A stretch of 64,000 nt of DNA from Gammaproteobacteria bacterium (GTDB lineage: Bacteria; Pseudomonadota; Gammaproteobacteria; Steroidobacterales; Steroidobacteraceae). Position 1 is the first letter of the stretch; each line of letters starts with the position of its first letter. A program made the position numbers and the translations under genes. The stretch is taken from positions 1 to 64,000 of the forward strand of contig JANYAD010000214.1 of NCBI GenBank assembly GCA_025355165.1. The letters run 5' to 3'. Below are positions 49,735-64,000 of the stretch, piece by piece. The notes below the pieces were generated by a model. That model made no database searches. It was given only the letters and a program-made list of their open reading frames with translations, and was not told the origin of the DNA.

Positions 49735-50631
49735 GTGAATTGGCGGGGATGGATGGCCTTCATGGCGCTTGGAATTATTTGGGGATTCCCCTATTTTTTC
49801 ATCAAAGTTGCGCTTCAGGAAGTCGCGCCGCTTCTTCTGGCGTGTAGCCGTCTGGTGCTCGCTACCGCGATATTGCTACCTATCGCGTGGCGCAGTGGAG
49901 CGCTGCATCAGCTCGGCAACCACAAGGCGGCGATTTTCGCGTTTGGTCTGGTGGAGTTCGCCATCCCTTTTTCCCTGATCTCGATCGGCGAGCGATGGAT
50001 CAGCTCCTCCGTCACCGGAATTCTGATTGCCATGGTGCCTTTATCGATTGTATTTATTCAGCGCCTCTTCGGTATTCGCGAGTCATTGGGTGCGTGGCGC
50101 GTGATCGGGCTGGCGATGGGGTTTCTGGGCGTGGCGGCGCTCTTGGGAACAGGCTCGGTTTCCGGGTATCTCGGCTGGCTCGGCGTCGGATGTATGGTGA
50201 TCGCAACCCTGTGCTACGCGATCGGGCCTCTGATCATCGAGCGGCATATGCAGGGTTTGGATTCGATTGGGCCGCTGGCGGCCAGTCTGGCGGTGGGCAG
50301 TGTCATATTGTTGATACCGGCCCTGTTTCAGCTGCCCCGAAGTATCCCGTCCGCAACCGCGCTCGTGTCGATCGCCGTGTTGGGTATAGTTTGCACCGCG
50401 GCGGCGATGTTACTGATGTTTTACCTGGTGAATCATGCCGGTGCCTCACGGGCAACCGTGATTACCTACATTAACCCCGTCGTGGCGACGCTGCTCGGCG
50501 TGTGGGTGCTTAACGAACATCTCGGTATCGGCGGCGCCATTGCATTTGTAATGATTCTGCTCGGTTCGTGGCTCGCGACCCGCGGCAGGGTGGCTCGCGC
50601 ATCCACTCGCGAGGCGGCATTAGGCGCGTGA
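49735..50631 (+). CDS. EamA/DMT-family transporter (GTG start)
   Basis: A 298-residue inner membrane protein with ten hydrophobic segments in two EamA repeats (repeat one begins WMAFMALGIIWGFPYFFIKVAL; repeat two begins SGYLGWLGVGCMVIATLCYAIGPLII). It is a metabolite or amino-acid exporter by family; the substrate is unknown. GGGGGAG precedes GTG 49735. Its stop overlaps the GTG start of the SelO gene (GTGA at 50628-50631), so the two are coupled. Confidence 0.91.
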   Translation: MNWRGWMAFMALGIIWGFPYFFIKVALQEVAPLLLACSRLVLATAILLPIAWRSGALHQLGNHKAAIFAFGLVEFAIPFSLISIGERWISSSVTGILIAMVPLSIVFIQRLFGIRESLGAWRVIGLAMGFLGVAALLGTGSVSGYLGWLGVGCMVIATLCYAIGPLIIERHMQGLDSIGPLAASLAVGSVILLIPALFQLPRSIPSATALVSIAVLGIVCTAAAMLLMFYLVNHAGASRATVITYINPVVATLLGVWVLNEHLGIGGAIAFVMILLGSWLATRGRVARASTREAALGA

Positions 50632-52091
50632 ATTCCAGGAGTTATGCCAGCCTGCCTGAGCGTTTCTTTGCTCGAGTGGCTCCGACTCCGGTCGCCCAGC
50701 CGCGCGTTATTAAGGTCAACCTTGCGTTGGCAGCCGAGTTGAATCTGAGCTTGAAGGGCTTTCGAGGCGAGGGCGACGCCGCGTTTTTTTCCGGAAATGT
50801 ATTGCCTCCAGGCTCGGTGACCATTGCCATGGCGTATGCGGGGCATCAGTTCGGCCACTTCGTGCCGCAGCTGGGCGATGGCCGCGCGATCCTCATAGGC
50901 GAGAGGTCCGACGGGCATGGACGGCTATGGGATATTCAACTGAAGGGATGCGGCCGCACGCCATATTCGCGCAGCGGCGACGGGCGTGCAGCACTGGGTC
51001 CTGTGCTGCGCGAATACATTGTCAGCGAAGCCATGCATGCCTTGGGGATTCCTGCCACCCGATCCCTGGCGGCAGTCACAACCGGAGAAAGCGTGCGTCG
51101 CGAAGAACTCCTGCCGGGCGCCATCCTGACGCGCGTTGCCGCCAGTCACGTGCGTGTCGGGACATTCGAATATTTTGCAGCCCGCCGCGACTTTGCCGCC
51201 ACCAAAATTCTCGCCGACTTTTGTATTGGTCGCCACAGCGGACGCCTCGCGCATGACGAGGCGCCCTATCTGGCGTGGCTTCGCGAGGTTATCGCTCGCC
51301 AGGCAGCACTGCTCGCGGACTGGATGCAGGTTGGTTTCGTTCATGGCGTCATGAACACCGACAATATGGCTATCTCCGGCGAGACCATTGACTTCGGGCC
51401 GTGTGCGTTCCTGGATGCATTCGACCCGGCCGCCGTGTTCAGCTCCATTGACGAACACGGCCGCTACGCATACAGCAATCAGCCGCATGCCGCAGCGTGG
51501 AATTTAGCGCGACTTGCCGAATCGGTGCTCACCCTGCTGCATGAAGACCCCGCGCGGGCAGTTGATCTGGCGCAGCAGCTGATCGAGTCCTTTGCGGGGC
51601 AGTTCGCCGATCGCTGGCTTAAGGGTATGCGCCGCAAAATCGGCTTGAGTGTGGAGGAAGCAGGGGATCGTGCGCTCATCGAGGATCTGCTTGATGCGAT
51701 GCATCGTAATCAGGCGGATTTCACGCTTACCTTCCGGGGCTTATCCAACGCCGTAACGGACCCGCAACCGATAGGCGAGGCGCGCGTTTCATTCGAGCAT
51801 TCTCGCGACTACCAGGAATGGGTGCAACGCTGGCGCGTGCGCGCAGCACGCGAACCGATGTCGCCGGCCGCGCGCGCAGCAGCCATGCGGCAGGTCAACC
51901 CAGCCTACATTGCGCGCAACCATCGCATCGAACAAGTAATTGCCGCAGCGGTGGAGCAGCGCGATCTCGCGCCCTTTGAGCAATTGCTAGCCGTGCTATC
52001 GCAGCCCTATCTGGATCAAGCTGCATTTGCCGCGTATGCCAATCCGCCCGCCGCGAGCGAGCGGGTATTACAGACTTTCTGTGGTACCTAA
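50628..52091 (+). CDS. selO: protein adenylyltransferase SelO (YdiU/UPF0061)
   Basis: A 487-residue pseudokinase-fold AMPylase that transfers AMP to protein hydroxyls and is linked to oxidative stress. Signatures: MAYAGHQFGHFVPQLGDGRAILIGE, the glycine-rich QLKGCGRTPYSRSGDGRAALG with inverted nucleotide binding, HGVMNTDNMAISGETIDFGPCAFLD (catalytic-loop Asn-Asp set and D-F-G), and the C-terminal NPAYIARNHRIEQVI. No C-terminal selenocysteine/cysteine tail typical of the longest forms is obvious beyond the final CGT. Start GTG 50628 overlaps the EamA stop. It lies 65 nt upstream of the DipZ-Msr genes, consistent with a shared redox theme. Confidence 0.95.
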   Translation: MNSRSYASLPERFFARVAPTPVAQPRVIKVNLALAAELNLSLKGFRGEGDAAFFSGNVLPPGSVTIAMAYAGHQFGHFVPQLGDGRAILIGERSDGHGRLWDIQLKGCGRTPYSRSGDGRAALGPVLREYIVSEAMHALGIPATRSLAAVTTGESVRREELLPGAILTRVAASHVRVGTFEYFAARRDFAATKILADFCIGRHSGRLAHDEAPYLAWLREVIARQAALLADWMQVGFVHGVMNTDNMAISGETIDFGPCAFLDAFDPAAVFSSIDEHGRYAYSNQPHAAAWNLARLAESVLTLLHEDPARAVDLAQQLIESFAGQFADRWLKGMRRKIGLSVEEAGDRALIEDLLDAMHRNQADFTLTFRGLSNAVTDPQPIGEARVSFEHSRDYQEWVQRWRVRAAREPMSPAARAAAMRQVNPAYIARNHRIEQVIAAAVEQRDLAPFEQLLAVLSQPYLDQAAFAAYANPPAASERVLQTFCGT

Positions 52092-52156
52092 GGGAGGCGC
52101 TGCAATGTAATGGCCCGGTCGCCGGTCTTATGAGACAGGAGTAAGATTTTGCAGCC

Positions 52157-53938
52157 ATGACCATCGTTATTTTAGTGTTTTTAGGCGGCGTGCTGACCAT
52201 TTTGAGTCCTTGCATCTTGCCGGTTCTGCCCTTCGTCTTCGCTCGGTCCGAGCAAAAATTCCTCACCAGCGGTCTTCCGATGCTGGCCGGCATGACGGTG
52301 ACTTTTGCCGCGATTGCGACACTGGCAGCCGTCGGTGGTTCCTGGGCCGTCAGGGTGAACCAATACGGAAGAATTGCCGCGATGGTGCTGCTGATCGCAT
52401 TTGCTGCGACGCTGCTGTCGGAGCGGCTGGCTGACTGGATGGCAACTCCTTTCGTCGCCTTGGGCAACCGTCTCGCGCAACCCACCGCGGGAAAAGTTGG
52501 CCGCATCGGACTCGTGAATTCGTTGGCGCTCGGCGTGGCGACCGGCCTTTTGTGGGCACCCTGCGCCGGTCCCATTCTCGGCCTCATTTTGACGGGGGCG
52601 GCCATCTCCGGCCCTAATGCGCGTACGACCTTGCTGCTGTTTGCGTATGCCGCTGGAGCCGCCACCTCGCTGGCGCTCGCGCTGCTTGCCGGCGCGAAGG
52701 TTTTTGCTTTCTTGAAAAAATCGCTCGGTACCGGGGTGTGGATACGGCGCATTCTCGGCGTCGCAGTGCTATTTGCCGTCGTGGCCATCGCCTTTGGCTG
52801 GGATTCGAGCGTGCTAAAGCGTTTATCGTTCAGCACGACGAATAGTCTCGAGCAATCCCTGATCGGTAAGATCAAACCGCCCACCTCGCACGGCACCACG
52901 AGCGTGGCCCCGAACAATGCGAGGGATGGGCAGGGGATGAGGATGTCGGCTGAAACGTCGACGGGAGACTTGCCAATAGAGGGAGAAGTCCCGTCATTCG
53001 CCGGCGCGTCCCTGTGGATCAATTCAACGCCGCTCGGGCCGCAAGCCTTGCGCGGTAAAGTCGTCATGGTCGATTTTTGGACTTATTCCTGCATCAACTG
53101 CTTGCGAGCCCTTCCGTTTGTGGAAGCTTGGTATGAGAAATATAAAAATCACGGCTTGGTGGTGATCGGTGTGCACGCGCCTGAATTCGCATTCGAAAAG
53201 GACCCGGCTAATGTGCGCCGCGCCGTCGCCGATTTTAATATCACCTATCCTATTGCGCTCGACAACGACTATGCCATTTGGCAGGCATTTAATAATCAAT
53301 ATTGGCCTGCGCATTATTTCATCGATGCGCTCGGCCGTATCCGCGCCCACCACTTCGGCGAGGGCAACTATGCGGAGTCGGAACAGATTATTCGAAAACT
53401 GCTGAACGATGCGGGGCATAGCGATCTGCCGCCGCCAGGCTTAAGTTCGATGCGAGTCGTCGGCATACAGGCTGCGCCCGACGAGGCGCACGATCAATCA
53501 CCCGAAACCTATGTTGGCTATGCACGCGCCGAGAATTTCGCCTCGCCGGGGGGATTCGTCCAGCAGCAATTGCACCGCTATTCGTTGCCTCCGGCATTGA
53601 AATTAAATCAATGGGCCTTGAGCGGGACTTGGAACGTTGAGCCCGAGAAGGCCGTGTCAGGCGTTGCGACCGGGAAAATCATTTTCCGCTTTTATGCGCG
53701 CGATTTGCATCTTGTTCTCGGTCCCGGCGGCGGTAAGCCGGTGCGCTTCCGAGTGTTGCTGGACGGCGCGGCGCCCGGCGCGAATCATGGCGCGGATACG
53801 GATTCGGATGGCGCCGGCGCGATTGATGGACAGCGCCTGTATCAGTTAATTCGCCAGACCGGAGATGTGAGAGAGCATGTATTTTCAGTCGAGTTCTTGG
53901 ATCCCGGGGTTCAAGCGTACTCATTTACGTTCGGTTAA
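52157..53938 (+). CDS. dipZ: DipZ: fused CcdA membrane domain and thioredoxin-like domain
   Basis: A 593-residue protein carrying electrons from cytoplasmic thioredoxin across the membrane. The N-terminal CcdA/DsbD-like part (six or so helices) has the redox cysteines in SPCILP (C19) and APCAGP (C136). A linker leads to a TlpA/thioredoxin domain with C313-I-N-C316 (WTYSCINCLRALPF). The C-terminal about 150 residues form the beta-rich DipZ domain (NQWALSGTWNVEPEKA...). It is followed after 10 nt by an exported MsrB and then an exported MsrA, so its probable clients are these reductases. Confidence 0.94.
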   Translation: MTIVILVFLGGVLTILSPCILPVLPFVFARSEQKFLTSGLPMLAGMTVTFAAIATLAAVGGSWAVRVNQYGRIAAMVLLIAFAATLLSERLADWMATPFVALGNRLAQPTAGKVGRIGLVNSLALGVATGLLWAPCAGPILGLILTGAAISGPNARTTLLLFAYAAGAATSLALALLAGAKVFAFLKKSLGTGVWIRRILGVAVLFAVVAIAFGWDSSVLKRLSFSTTNSLEQSLIGKIKPPTSHGTTSVAPNNARDGQGMRMSAETSTGDLPIEGEVPSFAGASLWINSTPLGPQALRGKVVMVDFWTYSCINCLRALPFVEAWYEKYKNHGLVVIGVHAPEFAFEKDPANVRRAVADFNITYPIALDNDYAIWQAFNNQYWPAHYFIDALGRIRAHHFGEGNYAESEQIIRKLLNDAGHSDLPPPGLSSMRVVGIQAAPDEAHDQSPETYVGYARAENFASPGGFVQQQLHRYSLPPALKLNQWALSGTWNVEPEKAVSGVATGKIIFRFYARDLHLVLGPGGGKPVRFRVLLDGAAPGANHGADTDSDGAGAIDGQRLYQLIRQTGDVREHVFSVEFLDPGVQAYSFTFG

Positions 53939-53948
53939 GAGGCAAGCC

Positions 53949-54515
53949 ATGAGCGAATCAGTAAGTCGTCGTTATTTTGTCTTCGGATTGGCGGCGTTGT
54001 CCGCGATCCCTTTCGCCCGCAGAGCGTGGTCCGCGGCCGCACCGCCGGGGCCGGCGATCGACAATCAGGTGACCATCGAGAATTTCTCGGCTGCCGGCAA
54101 AAGCCTCGGCACCTTGCGGGTGGAGAAAGTCATTAAGACCGATGCCGAGTGGCAGGCGATGCTTTCCCCGCTCGCGTATCGAGTCGCACGCCGGGCCGGC
54201 ACGGAGATGGCCTTCACCGGGGAGTACGATAAAAATCATGCAGACGGCATTTATCACTGCGTATGCTGCGATACGGTCTTGTATGATTCCAAGACAAAGT
54301 TTGAATCAGGCACGGGTTGGCCGAGTTTCTGGCAACCGATTTCGGCCATTAATGTCGTCAAAAGCAGCGACCGAAGTTTAGGCATGGAACGGGATGCCAT
54401 CTCTTGCCGACGCTGCGACGCCCATCTGGGCCACGTTTTCGATGACGGTCCGCGGCCCACAGGCCTGCGTTATTGCATGAACTCTGTGGCATTGCATTTA
54501 ACCGCTCGCGCGTAG
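53949..54515 (+). CDS. msrB: peptide-methionine (R)-S-oxide reductase, Tat-exported
   Basis: A 188-residue MsrB. The start at 53949 yields a twin-arginine signal (SRRYFVFGLAALSAIPFA), so the enzyme is predicted to be extracytoplasmic. Zinc ligands are C104/C107 (H-C-V-C-C-D) and C153/C156 (S-C-R-R-C). The catalytic Cys is C176 in RYCMNSVAL. TGWPSFWQPI and HLGHVFDDGP are family blocks. C106, inside the first zinc pair, is an extra cysteine. An earlier in-frame ATG (53877) lies inside dipZ and is rejected. Second gene of the dipZ-msrB-msrA set. Confidence 0.95.
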   Translation: MSESVSRRYFVFGLAALSAIPFARRAWSAAAPPGPAIDNQVTIENFSAAGKSLGTLRVEKVIKTDAEWQAMLSPLAYRVARRAGTEMAFTGEYDKNHADGIYHCVCCDTVLYDSKTKFESGTGWPSFWQPISAINVVKSSDRSLGMERDAISCRRCDAHLGHVFDDGPRPTGLRYCMNSVALHLTARA

Positions 54516-54528
54516 GGAAGGAAACAGC

Positions 54529-55239
54529 ATGTCATTTAAAACTTTTGCATCTCCGCTGCGACTCGCCATCATCAGCGGCCTAGCGAGCGTCGGACTCCTC
54601 GTCTATCACTCGCCGCTGTTCGGGGCGGAGGCGCCGGTCATAATTGCGCCCCCTGCGCTTGACAACCCGAAAAGCGCGGGGCCTCTTCAGAGCGTGGTCT
54701 TGGCGGGCGGCTGCTTTTGGGGAGTTCAGGGCGTGTTCGAACACGCGAGGGGCGTGCAAAGAGTCGTAGCCGGTTACGCCGGCGGCGAAAAATCCACTGC
54801 ACAATACGAGACGGTGAGTTCGGGAGCTACGGGACACGCGGAATCGGTCAAGATCACGTTCGATCCAGCCCTCATCTCATACGGTCAGATTCTGCAGATT
54901 GCATTTTCGGTAGTGCACGATCCCACTGAGCTTAACCGTCAAGGTCCTGATGTCGGCACCCAATATCGCTCCGCAATCTTCTATGCGGATGAGAGTCAAA
55001 AGCGCATCGCGCAAGCCTATATCAGCCAGCTGGATCAAGCTCACGCGTATCCTAGGCCCATCGTCACGCGCGTCGATCCACTTAAGGGATTTTATGCCGC
55101 GGAAGACTATCACCAGGATTATCTGATCCATAATCCCACGCAGCCTTACATCGCCGTCTACGACCTTCCCAAAGTCGAGAATTTCAGGCGCACTTTTCCA
55201 GAATTGTATAGCGGGAAACCAGTGATGGCGCACAACTGA
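54529..55239 (+). CDS. msrA: peptide-methionine (S)-S-oxide reductase, exported, single-cysteine
   Basis: A 236-residue MsrA with an N-terminal signal or anchor (LRLAIISGLASVGLLVYHSPL). The active site is G-G-C62-F-W-G, with GYAGGEKSTAQYETVSSGATGHAESVKI, the acid-rich HDPTELNRQGPDVGTQYRSAI and YHQDYL blocks all intact. C62 is the only cysteine; the usual C-terminal resolving Cys is absent, so the sulfenic acid must be reduced by an outside thiol, plausibly the DipZ thioredoxin domain. GGAAGGAAA precedes the ATG, 13 nt after msrB. Confidence 0.95.
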   Translation: MSFKTFASPLRLAIISGLASVGLLVYHSPLFGAEAPVIIAPPALDNPKSAGPLQSVVLAGGCFWGVQGVFEHARGVQRVVAGYAGGEKSTAQYETVSSGATGHAESVKITFDPALISYGQILQIAFSVVHDPTELNRQGPDVGTQYRSAIFYADESQKRIAQAYISQLDQAHAYPRPIVTRVDPLKGFYAAEDYHQDYLIHNPTQPYIAVYDLPKVENFRRTFPELYSGKPVMAHN

Positions 55240-62000: not shown

Positions 62001-64000
62001 TCAGTCGGAAGGAAGCAATGTAACCATGGTGAGGGTTCGAGCGCCGGTCGCCGCGCCACCTTCGGATTGATCGATGACAACGTAGAAGCTCTTCGGTTGA
62101 GCGCGTTTCGCGGCTTTCAAGGGAACGCTGAGACTAATGCTGGATTTTCCATCGCCGATGTAGGCGAGCTGTGGCACCACCGGCGAAAAATCCATGCCTG
62201 GCTTGGCGGTGCCCGATTCAGTCCACCAAGTGAAGTGAGTCTCACCGCGCAGACTCCCTCTCCTCCGTACCGTGACTTCGGCTGAAGATTCAGACGGCGG
62301 AACATCGATGGTGTCGACGGTCATTTCTAATTTGGGCGGCCCCGCAGGGACGGCCGCCGGCGGTGCACTGATAGAGGGAGTAACCGGCGTCACCGCTGCA
62401 GGCGCTGTGGGAAGTGTCGCAAGCGGCGGTCTTGCGAGGGGCGGAGTTGGGGTGGGCGATGCCACTGGTGCCGGTGCTGTTTGCACCGGTACGTTTGAAA
62501 TGGGCGCTGGCGAACCGCTGTCGATTCCGGGCTGTCCTCGATTGCTCACAAACCAAAAAAAGCCGGCAATGATCAAAGCGACGGCAAGGGCTGTGGCGGC
62601 GTCCATACCGTGGTAGGACTCCTTGGGTTCAGGCGCCTCAAGAAGATCGGCGAGAGGGGCCAAGTGTTTAGCTGCCGCACGCAGCTCAAGCTGATCCAAC
62701 CATTTCTGCATGTCGGTCGGGCGGCCTTTGCGGTCCCAGCAAAGGCCAGCACGAAGTGCCTGCCATTGCTGAGAGCTTAGCTGCGGCGGCCGCCGCGGTT
62801 TTATTCCCGCTTGCCGAGCTTCGATGGCGGTTCTGCGAAAGAACGGATGCGTCCCCGAGACAAGCCAATAGGCGATGCAAGCCAACGAAAAGATATCATC
62901 GCTCGTCTCAGGTTCCTCACCCTCCAGCACTTGACAACTGGCGTAGCCCGAGGTGGAAAAGGGCAGGGTCAATTCATAATCTGACAATGCGATGCGGTGC
63001 AAGCCGCGCGTCGCTGCGAAGCCAAGGACGCGCAGGTCGCCTGAGTGGGCAACAAAAATATTTTGCGGGTTGATGTTCCCATGCACGACCCCGCGAGAAT
63101 GTGCATATGCGATGGCGGCACCCGTATCTCGCAAGACTGCTAGCGCTTGCGATCGCGATAGGGGAATGAGCTTTCGCCCCTCCAGCACGCGGCCTAGTGC
63201 AGTGCCTTCCAGCAGTTCCATGGTGAAAAAAGCCACTGCGCCGTCACGGTCAAACTCGAACACGCGCACGATGTGTGGATGCGACAGCAATTGCAGCTGC
63301 TGGAATTCTTGCCGCAGTTCGCTGAGTGATTCCGCACGCTTCGCAACGCCCGCGTGCAGCACCTTGACCGCTATATGCACGCCCGGCGCGGACTCCAAAC
63401 GATACTCATCGAGTGCTTCAAAAACCGTTCCCAAACGGCCGCGGCCCAAAATCTTCTCGAGTCGATAACGGCGACGCAGAATGGCGCCTGGCTTGAGCTC
63501 AACGCCGGCATCAATGGGAAGTGGGTCTACCGGTGGCTGGCGGGTTTCCCGAGGCACAGCTGGCTCTCGCGCCAAGGGGTGATCGCGCCGCGCGGCCGAT
63601 GCCCGTGGCGCGGAGATGGGTTGGGGTGGCACATCCCTCAACGCGGGCTCTCGCGCGGCAGCGGGCTCCTGCGCGGCAGCGGACTCTCGCGCCACAGCGG
63701 ACTCGCGCGGCACAACGGACTCGCGCGGCACAACGGACTCGCGCGGCACAGCGGACTCGCGCGGCACAACGGACTCGCGCGCCACAGCGGACTCGCGCGC
63801 CACAGCGGACTCGCGCGCCACAACGGACTCGCGCGGCACAACGGGCTCGCGCGGCACAACGGGCTCGCGCGCCACAGCGGATTCGCGCGGCACAACGGGC
63901 TCGCGCGGCACAGGCCGGTCGTGTGTCACACGTGAATTGGTGGTTCTTAACGCAGATTCTTCCAATGACTTTTTAAGAGTCTGGAATACCTCGGCCTCGA
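62001..64000 (-). CDS. kinase-fold (pseudokinase) membrane protein with hexapeptide repeats and Calx-beta domain, 5' end beyond window
   Basis: At least 654 residues from TTG 63965; the frame stays open to the window edge (EAEVFQTLKKS), so the true start is probably outside. Residue numbers count from that TTG. About 18-108: fifteen hexads of [AV]-x-x-R-E-[SP]. About 165-430: Ser/Thr kinase fold with glycine loop GRGRLG (174-179), Lys201 (IAVKVL) and a candidate helix-C Glu, but HRD reads H295-G-N and DFG reads L314-G-F-A, so both catalytic Asp are lost. About 456-474: one TM. About 480-545: Pro/Ala-rich stalk. About 546-654: Calx-beta domain (ESGTAKPGMDF; DGKSSISLSVPL). No neighbour downstream shares the strand. 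Confidence 0.9.
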   Translation of the reverse strand, partial: EAEVFQTLKKSLEESALRTTNSRVTHDRPVPREPVVPRESAVAREPVVPREPVVPRESVVARESAVARESAVARESVVPRESAVPRESVVPRESVVPRESAVARESAAAQEPAAAREPALRDVPPQPISAPRASAARRDHPLAREPAVPRETRQPPVDPLPIDAGVELKPGAILRRRYRLEKILGRGRLGTVFEALDEYRLESAPGVHIAVKVLHAGVAKRAESLSELRQEFQQLQLLSHPHIVRVFEFDRDGAVAFFTMELLEGTALGRVLEGRKLIPLSRSQALAVLRDTGAAIAYAHSRGVVHGNINPQNIFVAHSGDLRVLGFAATRGLHRIALSDYELTLPFSTSGYASCQVLEGEEPETSDDIFSLACIAYWLVSGTHPFFRRTAIEARQAGIKPRRPPQLSSQQWQALRAGLCWDRKGRPTDMQKWLDQLELRAAAKHLAPLADLLEAPEPKESYHGMDAATALAVALIIAGFFWFVSNRGQPGIDSGSPAPISNVPVQTAPAPVASPTPTPPLARPPLATLPTAPAAVTPVTPSISAPPAAVPAGPPKLEMTVDTIDVPPSESSAEVTVRRRGSLRGETHFTWWTESGTAKPGMDFSPVVPQLAYIGDGKSSISLSVPLKAAKRAQPKSFYVVIDQSEGGAATGARTLTMVTLLPSD
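63643..63918. repeat. 18-bp tandem repeat inside the pseudokinase gene
   Basis: About 15 head-to-tail copies of an 18-bp unit, consensus ggactcgcgcggcacaac on the plus strand, varying at a few positions (cgg/cgc, aac/agc, gga/ggg). The unit is a multiple of three, so copy-number change keeps the frame and lengthens or shortens the R-E-[SP] hexad stretch. On the plus strand the repeat opens long spurious frames. Confidence 0.92.

Follow-up and report, generated by a model that had tools for sequence, protein, structure and literature searches.

The gene at the right end of the window (the whole stretch of 64,000 nt analysed here) encodes a protein whose kinase-shaped domain lacks both catalytic aspartates, and which probably is a receptor-like pseudokinase that crosses the inner membrane once and signals by docking or allostery. 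This is the best reading of our data and is based on the loss of both aspartates, the recent date of this loss, the kept kinase fold, the continued selection on it and the kept outer domain.

Gene structure and domain order

The gene lies on the minus strand of contig G000:C136 (69,104 bp), with its larger part at 62,001-64,000 and the remainder beyond the window's right edge. An earlier note on this DNA had advised looking past this edge for the start, and the gene is indeed completed there by two ATG codons ~205-211 bp further on, giving a product of 734-736 aa. The first ATG opens a frame of 736 aa, and the second (734-aa start) has an AAGGA 5 nt upstream. The protein comprises, in this order, a helical domain of ~75 aa, the hexad linker, the kinase fold (residues 249-500), one transmembrane helix, a Pro/Ala-rich stalk and a Calx-beta domain (Table 1). 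The earlier note had proposed one transmembrane segment, a Pro-rich stalk and a Calx-beta domain, an arrangement that both hydropathy and the model (for the helix) and fold comparison (for Calx-beta) bear out. It had also counted fifteen hexads, which is exactly the number present, but had placed them as an N-terminal tail; they are not the N-terminus, because the TTG start assumed there is internal to the gene, and the conserved helical domain (W..LS.LDQYYRRG) precedes them. This N-terminal domain has no other match in the own genome, and in the loci examined it was found only in members of the kinase family and in one 128-aa fragment encoded immediately ahead of such a kinase. Across the family, this domain co-occurs with the kinase and the Calx-beta domain.

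Table 1. Features of the pseudokinase gene in the window
Feature	Position	Strand	Evidence
In-window part of the gene, codons of ~residues 72-736 and stop	62001..64000	-	open frame
15 hexads (P/A)(R/Q)E(S/P)xx in linker, 18-bp minisatellite with 54-bp super-period	63639..63908	-	tandem repeat; not in homologues
Pseudokinase domain, Pkinase PF00069	62712..63467	-	profile match; AlphaFold2 model; PknA fold match
Glycine-rich loop GRGRLG; 4th position Arg, Gly in all intact homologues	63429..63446	-	
IAVKVL, beta3 lysine kept (K72 equivalent, residue 283)	63357..63374	-	alignment
Catalytic loop HGNINPQN: D166->N (residue 379), K168->N, N171 kept (residue 384)	63060..63083	-	alignment
GFA at DFG position: D184->G (residue 397), G186->A (residue 399)	63015..63023	-	alignment
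Single transmembrane helix AATALAVALIIAGFFWFV	62547..62600	-	hydropathy 2.18; helix 303-322 of model
Pro/Ala-rich outer stalk, predicted disordered	62340..62546	-	pLDDT under 50 across most
Calx-beta domain without acidic Ca-ligand cluster	62004..62336	-	profile and fold match

A kinase fold without catalytic aspartates

The domain belongs to the protein kinase superfamily, as it scores 106.2 bits with the Pkinase profile over residues 249-500 of the full protein (curated cut-off 31.7) and adopts the two-lobed kinase fold. In the AlphaFold2 model (501 residues, mean pLDDT 81), the kinase blocks mostly reach a pLDDT of 86-98, with 55-70 around the activation loop, and PknA matches the kinase part with Z 30.4 and rmsd 2.3 over 262 aligned residues; with the entire model as query, kinases filled the list of fold matches, and the absence of other folds from this list is uninformative. 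Aligned with PknA alone, and also in a 43-row alignment (PknB, PKA and 41 family rows), HGN pairs with HRD and GFA with DFG. In PKA numbering, D166 and K168 are both replaced by Asn, D184 by Gly and G186 by Ala; kept are the beta3 lysine K72 (K283), the alphaC glutamate E91 (E302) and N171 of the catalytic loop. The protein thus has neither of the aspartates that an active Ser/Thr kinase carries in HRD and DFG, and it lacks two of the three residues (beta3 Lys, HRD Asp, DFG Asp) of which the absence of at least one defines a pseudokinase bioinformatically. ATP binding appears possible from the sequence, because K72, E91, N171 and most of the glycine-rich loop remain.

These results agree with the earlier note on the retained loop GRGRLG and ATP lysine and on HGN as the counterpart of HRD. 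Its LGF for DFG was one residue off, the aligned triplet being G-F-A, and its conclusion that both aspartates are missing still stands. The alignments place HGN and GFA at the catalytic positions, and the kinase profile and the structure prediction, which it had named as checks, confirm the fold. That the protein is not a kinase, as it had proposed, is well supported by D166N, D184G and G186A on top of a K168 already lost throughout the clade, and its reading as a cross-membrane scaffold or sensor is still the most plausible one.

Of 55 kinase columns that are invariant in 21 intact relatives, 50 are kept and five differ (G259R, D379N, T388A, D397G, G399A), four of these in the glycine-rich loop, HRD or DFG. 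Leaving out the intact members one at a time gave 0-3 differing columns each, none at HRD or DFG. The fourth position of the loop, G259 (window ~63,435-63,437), is not a catalytic residue, yet it tracks degradation, being Gly in 21/21 intact and non-Gly in 7/7 degraded relatives.

The outer domain and the hexad linker

The C-terminal part scores 26.9 bits with the Calx-beta profile against a Pfam cut-off of 27.0, and 13 of 19 homologues have a Calx-beta match at E <= 0.01. Modelled alone (pLDDT 84), it has the Calx-beta fold, with Z 13.8 to the Calx-beta domains of NCX1 and integrin beta4. The top 21 fold rows are all Calx-beta domains of NCX1, CALX or integrin beta4 (Z ~11.5-13.8), and the first unrelated row follows at 10.1. 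It thus shares the fold of these domains (Z ~13-14) but lacks the acidic ligand clusters of calcium-binding Calx-beta domains: in the profile alignment to CALX, the acidic DDD...EED cluster lies opposite the non-acidic KAAKRAQPK. Because this cluster is lost, a role as calcium sensor is unlikely.

At the DNA level, the hexads correspond to 15.1 tandem copies of an 18-bp unit (89% matches), with 91% matches for the 54-bp super-period. They are absent from the sister protein in genome G010 and from all other homologues examined, whose linkers are Ala/Pro/Thr-rich and of variable length. By this comparison, the hexads are a young, species-specific minisatellite in a spacer and not a conserved signal, although they may influence its reach or flexibility. 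We rejected a conserved docking tail, since the repeat occurs in no homologue, and for the same reason there is no support for reading its Ser and Pro residues as phospho- or SH3-type sites. A 1732-aa relative (L077 3568-8763, G042:C73) has a QQPYPGQPP repeat linker before its kinase, which indicates that linker repeats expanded independently in the wider group.

Relatives and history of the loss

A family match at E <= 1e-35 was found in 18 of 23 genomes of the genus and in none of the remaining five; a scan of genome contigs with the protein alone as query had returned no relative in its first pass. Nearly all orthologues in the genus have HGD and DFG. Even the intact members of the protein's own clade are atypical, since Asn or Ser invariably stands in place of their HRDxK lysine, their HRD reads HGD and their APE reads SC(Q/E); the clade II paralogues (HGDLKPxN) mostly keep the lysine. 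Because same-genus orthologues mostly keep HGD and DFG, the loss of both aspartates is, by the alignment, a recent one.

The G010 protein (58% identity over the kinase region) is the sister of the protein on an IQ-TREE tree from which the catalytic columns were left out (support 100/99). Both are degraded, at different residues: over K72, E91, D166, K168, N171, D184 and G186, the protein reads K-E-N-N-N-G-A and the sister, with K72R, E91A and DFA, R-A-D-N-N-D-A. The earlier note had asked for homologues with the same substitutions; the sister is degraded at other positions and shares G399A. Changes on the tree number four for D166, six for D184, and five each for E91 and G186, and the relatives lost such residues several times independently. 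Together with the loss in the protein itself, this suggests that binding, and no longer phosphorylation, is the task of the kinase-shaped part. Other Ser/Thr kinases sampled from the order have both aspartates in 40 of 40 cases, a sample chosen among good matches that leans toward intact kinases; Fisher's test of 6/29 versus 0/40 gave p = 0.004 on related rows that are not independent. Nearly all other kinase matches of the own genome also have both aspartates, and the exceptions are weak and divergent. A link between catalytic loss and the presence of a clade II paralogue was rejected, as G013 and G017 are degraded with a single family match.

The kinase domain has a dN/dS of ~0.18 against the sister, at high dS, and is thus still under purifying selection. 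Measured against the Calx-beta branches, the kinase branches are 2.5-fold longer in this pair than elsewhere in the family (1.7-4.1, 95% range from 100 column bootstraps). Within the pair, Calx-beta is the slower domain (70% identity versus 62% for the kinase), whereas the kinase is mostly the slower one in the rest of the family.

Gene surroundings

One side of the gene is occupied by a convergent CoA-ligase gene, the other by a DUF2214-like membrane gene and MoxR-DUF58-VWA genes (named by inspection of translations, not by family search). G010 keeps both flanks, G014 and G015 the ligase flank, and the shared flanks indicate true orthology. A conserved neighbour such as an active kinase, a phosphatase or an FHA protein, which the earlier note had thought worth seeking, is not adjacent across the clade; no adjacent gene is conserved there. 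The neighbours vary, and what the nearest species have in common is limited to the CoA ligase and the MoxR cluster. Elsewhere in the own genome there are six FHA and two PP2C matches, one set of them beside a kinase on contig C181.

Comparison with known systems

The closest parallel in motif state is human VRK3, which has HGN and GFG, lacks K168 and is experimentally inactive (PMC2639636). Both proteins have HGN for HRD, GFG or GFA for DFG, a lost HRDxK lysine, a kept fold and an origin from active relatives. VRK3 differs in its ruined glycine-rich loop (TRDNQG), of which the frame remains here together with the beta3 lysine and the alphaC glutamate, in having neither transmembrane helix nor Calx-beta domain, and in its unrelated lineage. 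MviN of M. tuberculosis (ActPs3) is likewise a bacterial membrane protein with a dead Ser/Thr kinase domain, which docks FhaA after phosphorylation by PknB; no FHA gene lies beside the gene described here, and MviN has lost all three motifs including the beta3 lysine and has a different architecture. EssB/YukC shares the single-pass bacterial pseudokinase layout, but all its motifs and the glycine-rich loop are degraded, it is a T7SS component, and there is no family-level homology. Receptor kinases of the PknA/PknB type have the same kinase fold (Z 30.4), one transmembrane helix and an outer sensor domain, but carry PASTA or other outer domains and intact HRD and DFG; the PASTA kinase model (NF033483) matches the kinase part only, at 122 bits against a curated cut-off of 450.

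Among bacterial pseudokinases, the DLHK family has lost the beta3 lysine, keeps the HRD aspartate and has no transmembrane helix, and the DYD family has Arg for the beta3 lysine, no alphaC glutamate and a DYD motif (PMC12599244). The protein shows the reverse of DLHK in all three traits, and against DYD it keeps K283 and E302 and has GFA; the G010 sister has K->R and E->A, but DFA. ActPs3 members are marked by three degraded motifs and an activation-loop deletion, and VAVK is intact here. Judged by these motifs, the protein fits none of the three families compared. A review of seven bacterial pseudokinase families does not mention Calx-beta (PMC12599244), and in the literature we found neither a Calx-beta kinase nor losses of this kind.

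How the protein may act

We propose that the Calx-beta domain binds or senses a periplasmic partner outside, while the kinase-shaped domain inside would no longer transfer phosphate and would serve as a binding or allosteric module. It could dock a partner or dimerise with an active Ser/Thr kinase, for example the own paralogue at G000:C155. We infer the topology, the actual loss of activity and the docking role; the partner is a guess. We liken this mode to that of MviN, STRAD and VRK3, which act without catalysis. The missing aspartates, the 5/55 changed columns, the sister degraded in another way, the dN/dS of ~0.18 and the motif state of VRK3 argue for a docking or allosteric receptor, as do the repeated changes of D166 and D184 on the tree, the raised kinase-to-Calx-beta rate ratio and the co-occurrence of the three domains. 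Against it stand the lack of a conserved neighbouring partner, the kept K72, E91, N171 and most of the glycine-rich loop, and the precedent of CASK and SelO, pseudokinases misjudged from sequence alone; the faster evolution of the kinase domain would also fit slow decay.

Decay itself, in which paralogues make catalysis dispensable and the kinase domain drifts toward loss without function, would account for the relative acceleration of this domain, for losses that arose several times independently and struck other residues in each species and for the five of 23 genus genomes without a match at E <= 1e-35. We consider it unlikely in view of the intact 736-codon frame, the low dN/dS, the 50 of 55 invariant columns kept, a Calx-beta domain 70% identical within the pair, and the presence in other species of an orthologue that occupies the matching chromosomal position next to this CoA-ligase gene. 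An enzyme with unusual chemistry, either weak metal-independent phosphotransfer as in CASK or another transfer as in SelO, would agree with the retention of K72, E91 and N171. CASK, whose DFG site reads GFG, is active in the absence of Mg (PMC4718504), but it keeps the HRD aspartate, which is Asn here with K168 also lost, as in inactive VRK3 (PMC2639636). As the changes moreover fall exactly on catalytic columns, such an enzyme seems rather improbable. Hardly credible is a sequencing or assembly error in this metagenome-assembled genome: the closest orthologues do have HGD, and close homologues with intact motifs, which the earlier note had named as a sign of error, do exist, but three separated codons are changed (AAC, GGC, GCA) without a frameshift, and G399A is common to a sister that is itself degraded at other residues.

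More tentatively, a whole clade of uncultured soil Gammaproteobacteria may hold a Calx-beta receptor kinase family that works mainly by binding, with the kinase domain as a docking module in which catalytic residues are dispensable and were lost independently at least four times. If so, the family would present bacterial stages between kinase and pseudokinase as a natural series. Little work has been done on pseudokinases of bacteria, and most of the families described so far are recognised by losses that all their members share and that are fixed. Here one genus has intact, half-degraded and dead members, some at the same chromosomal place, and would allow direct study of how a kinase becomes a non-catalytic signalling protein. 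Neither the hexad repeats nor the Calx-beta domain should by themselves be read as function, the former being a minisatellite and the latter lacking its Ca ligands.

Further observations

The own genome contains a second degraded kinase-like frame (L018, G000:C11:22241-22924) with HGQ at the HRD position. At five loci (L050, L060, L061, L063, L065), a PAS/GGDEF-type cyclase gene, named from its translation, lies near or next to family members in both orientations. In the window itself, at 50,568-55,239 on the plus strand, genes for SelO, a membrane CcdA-like/thioredoxin fusion, MsrB and MsrA form one co-directional row. SelO is a protein adenylyltransferase, a kinase-like fold turned to a different chemistry, and this redox-repair cluster fits its proposed redox role.
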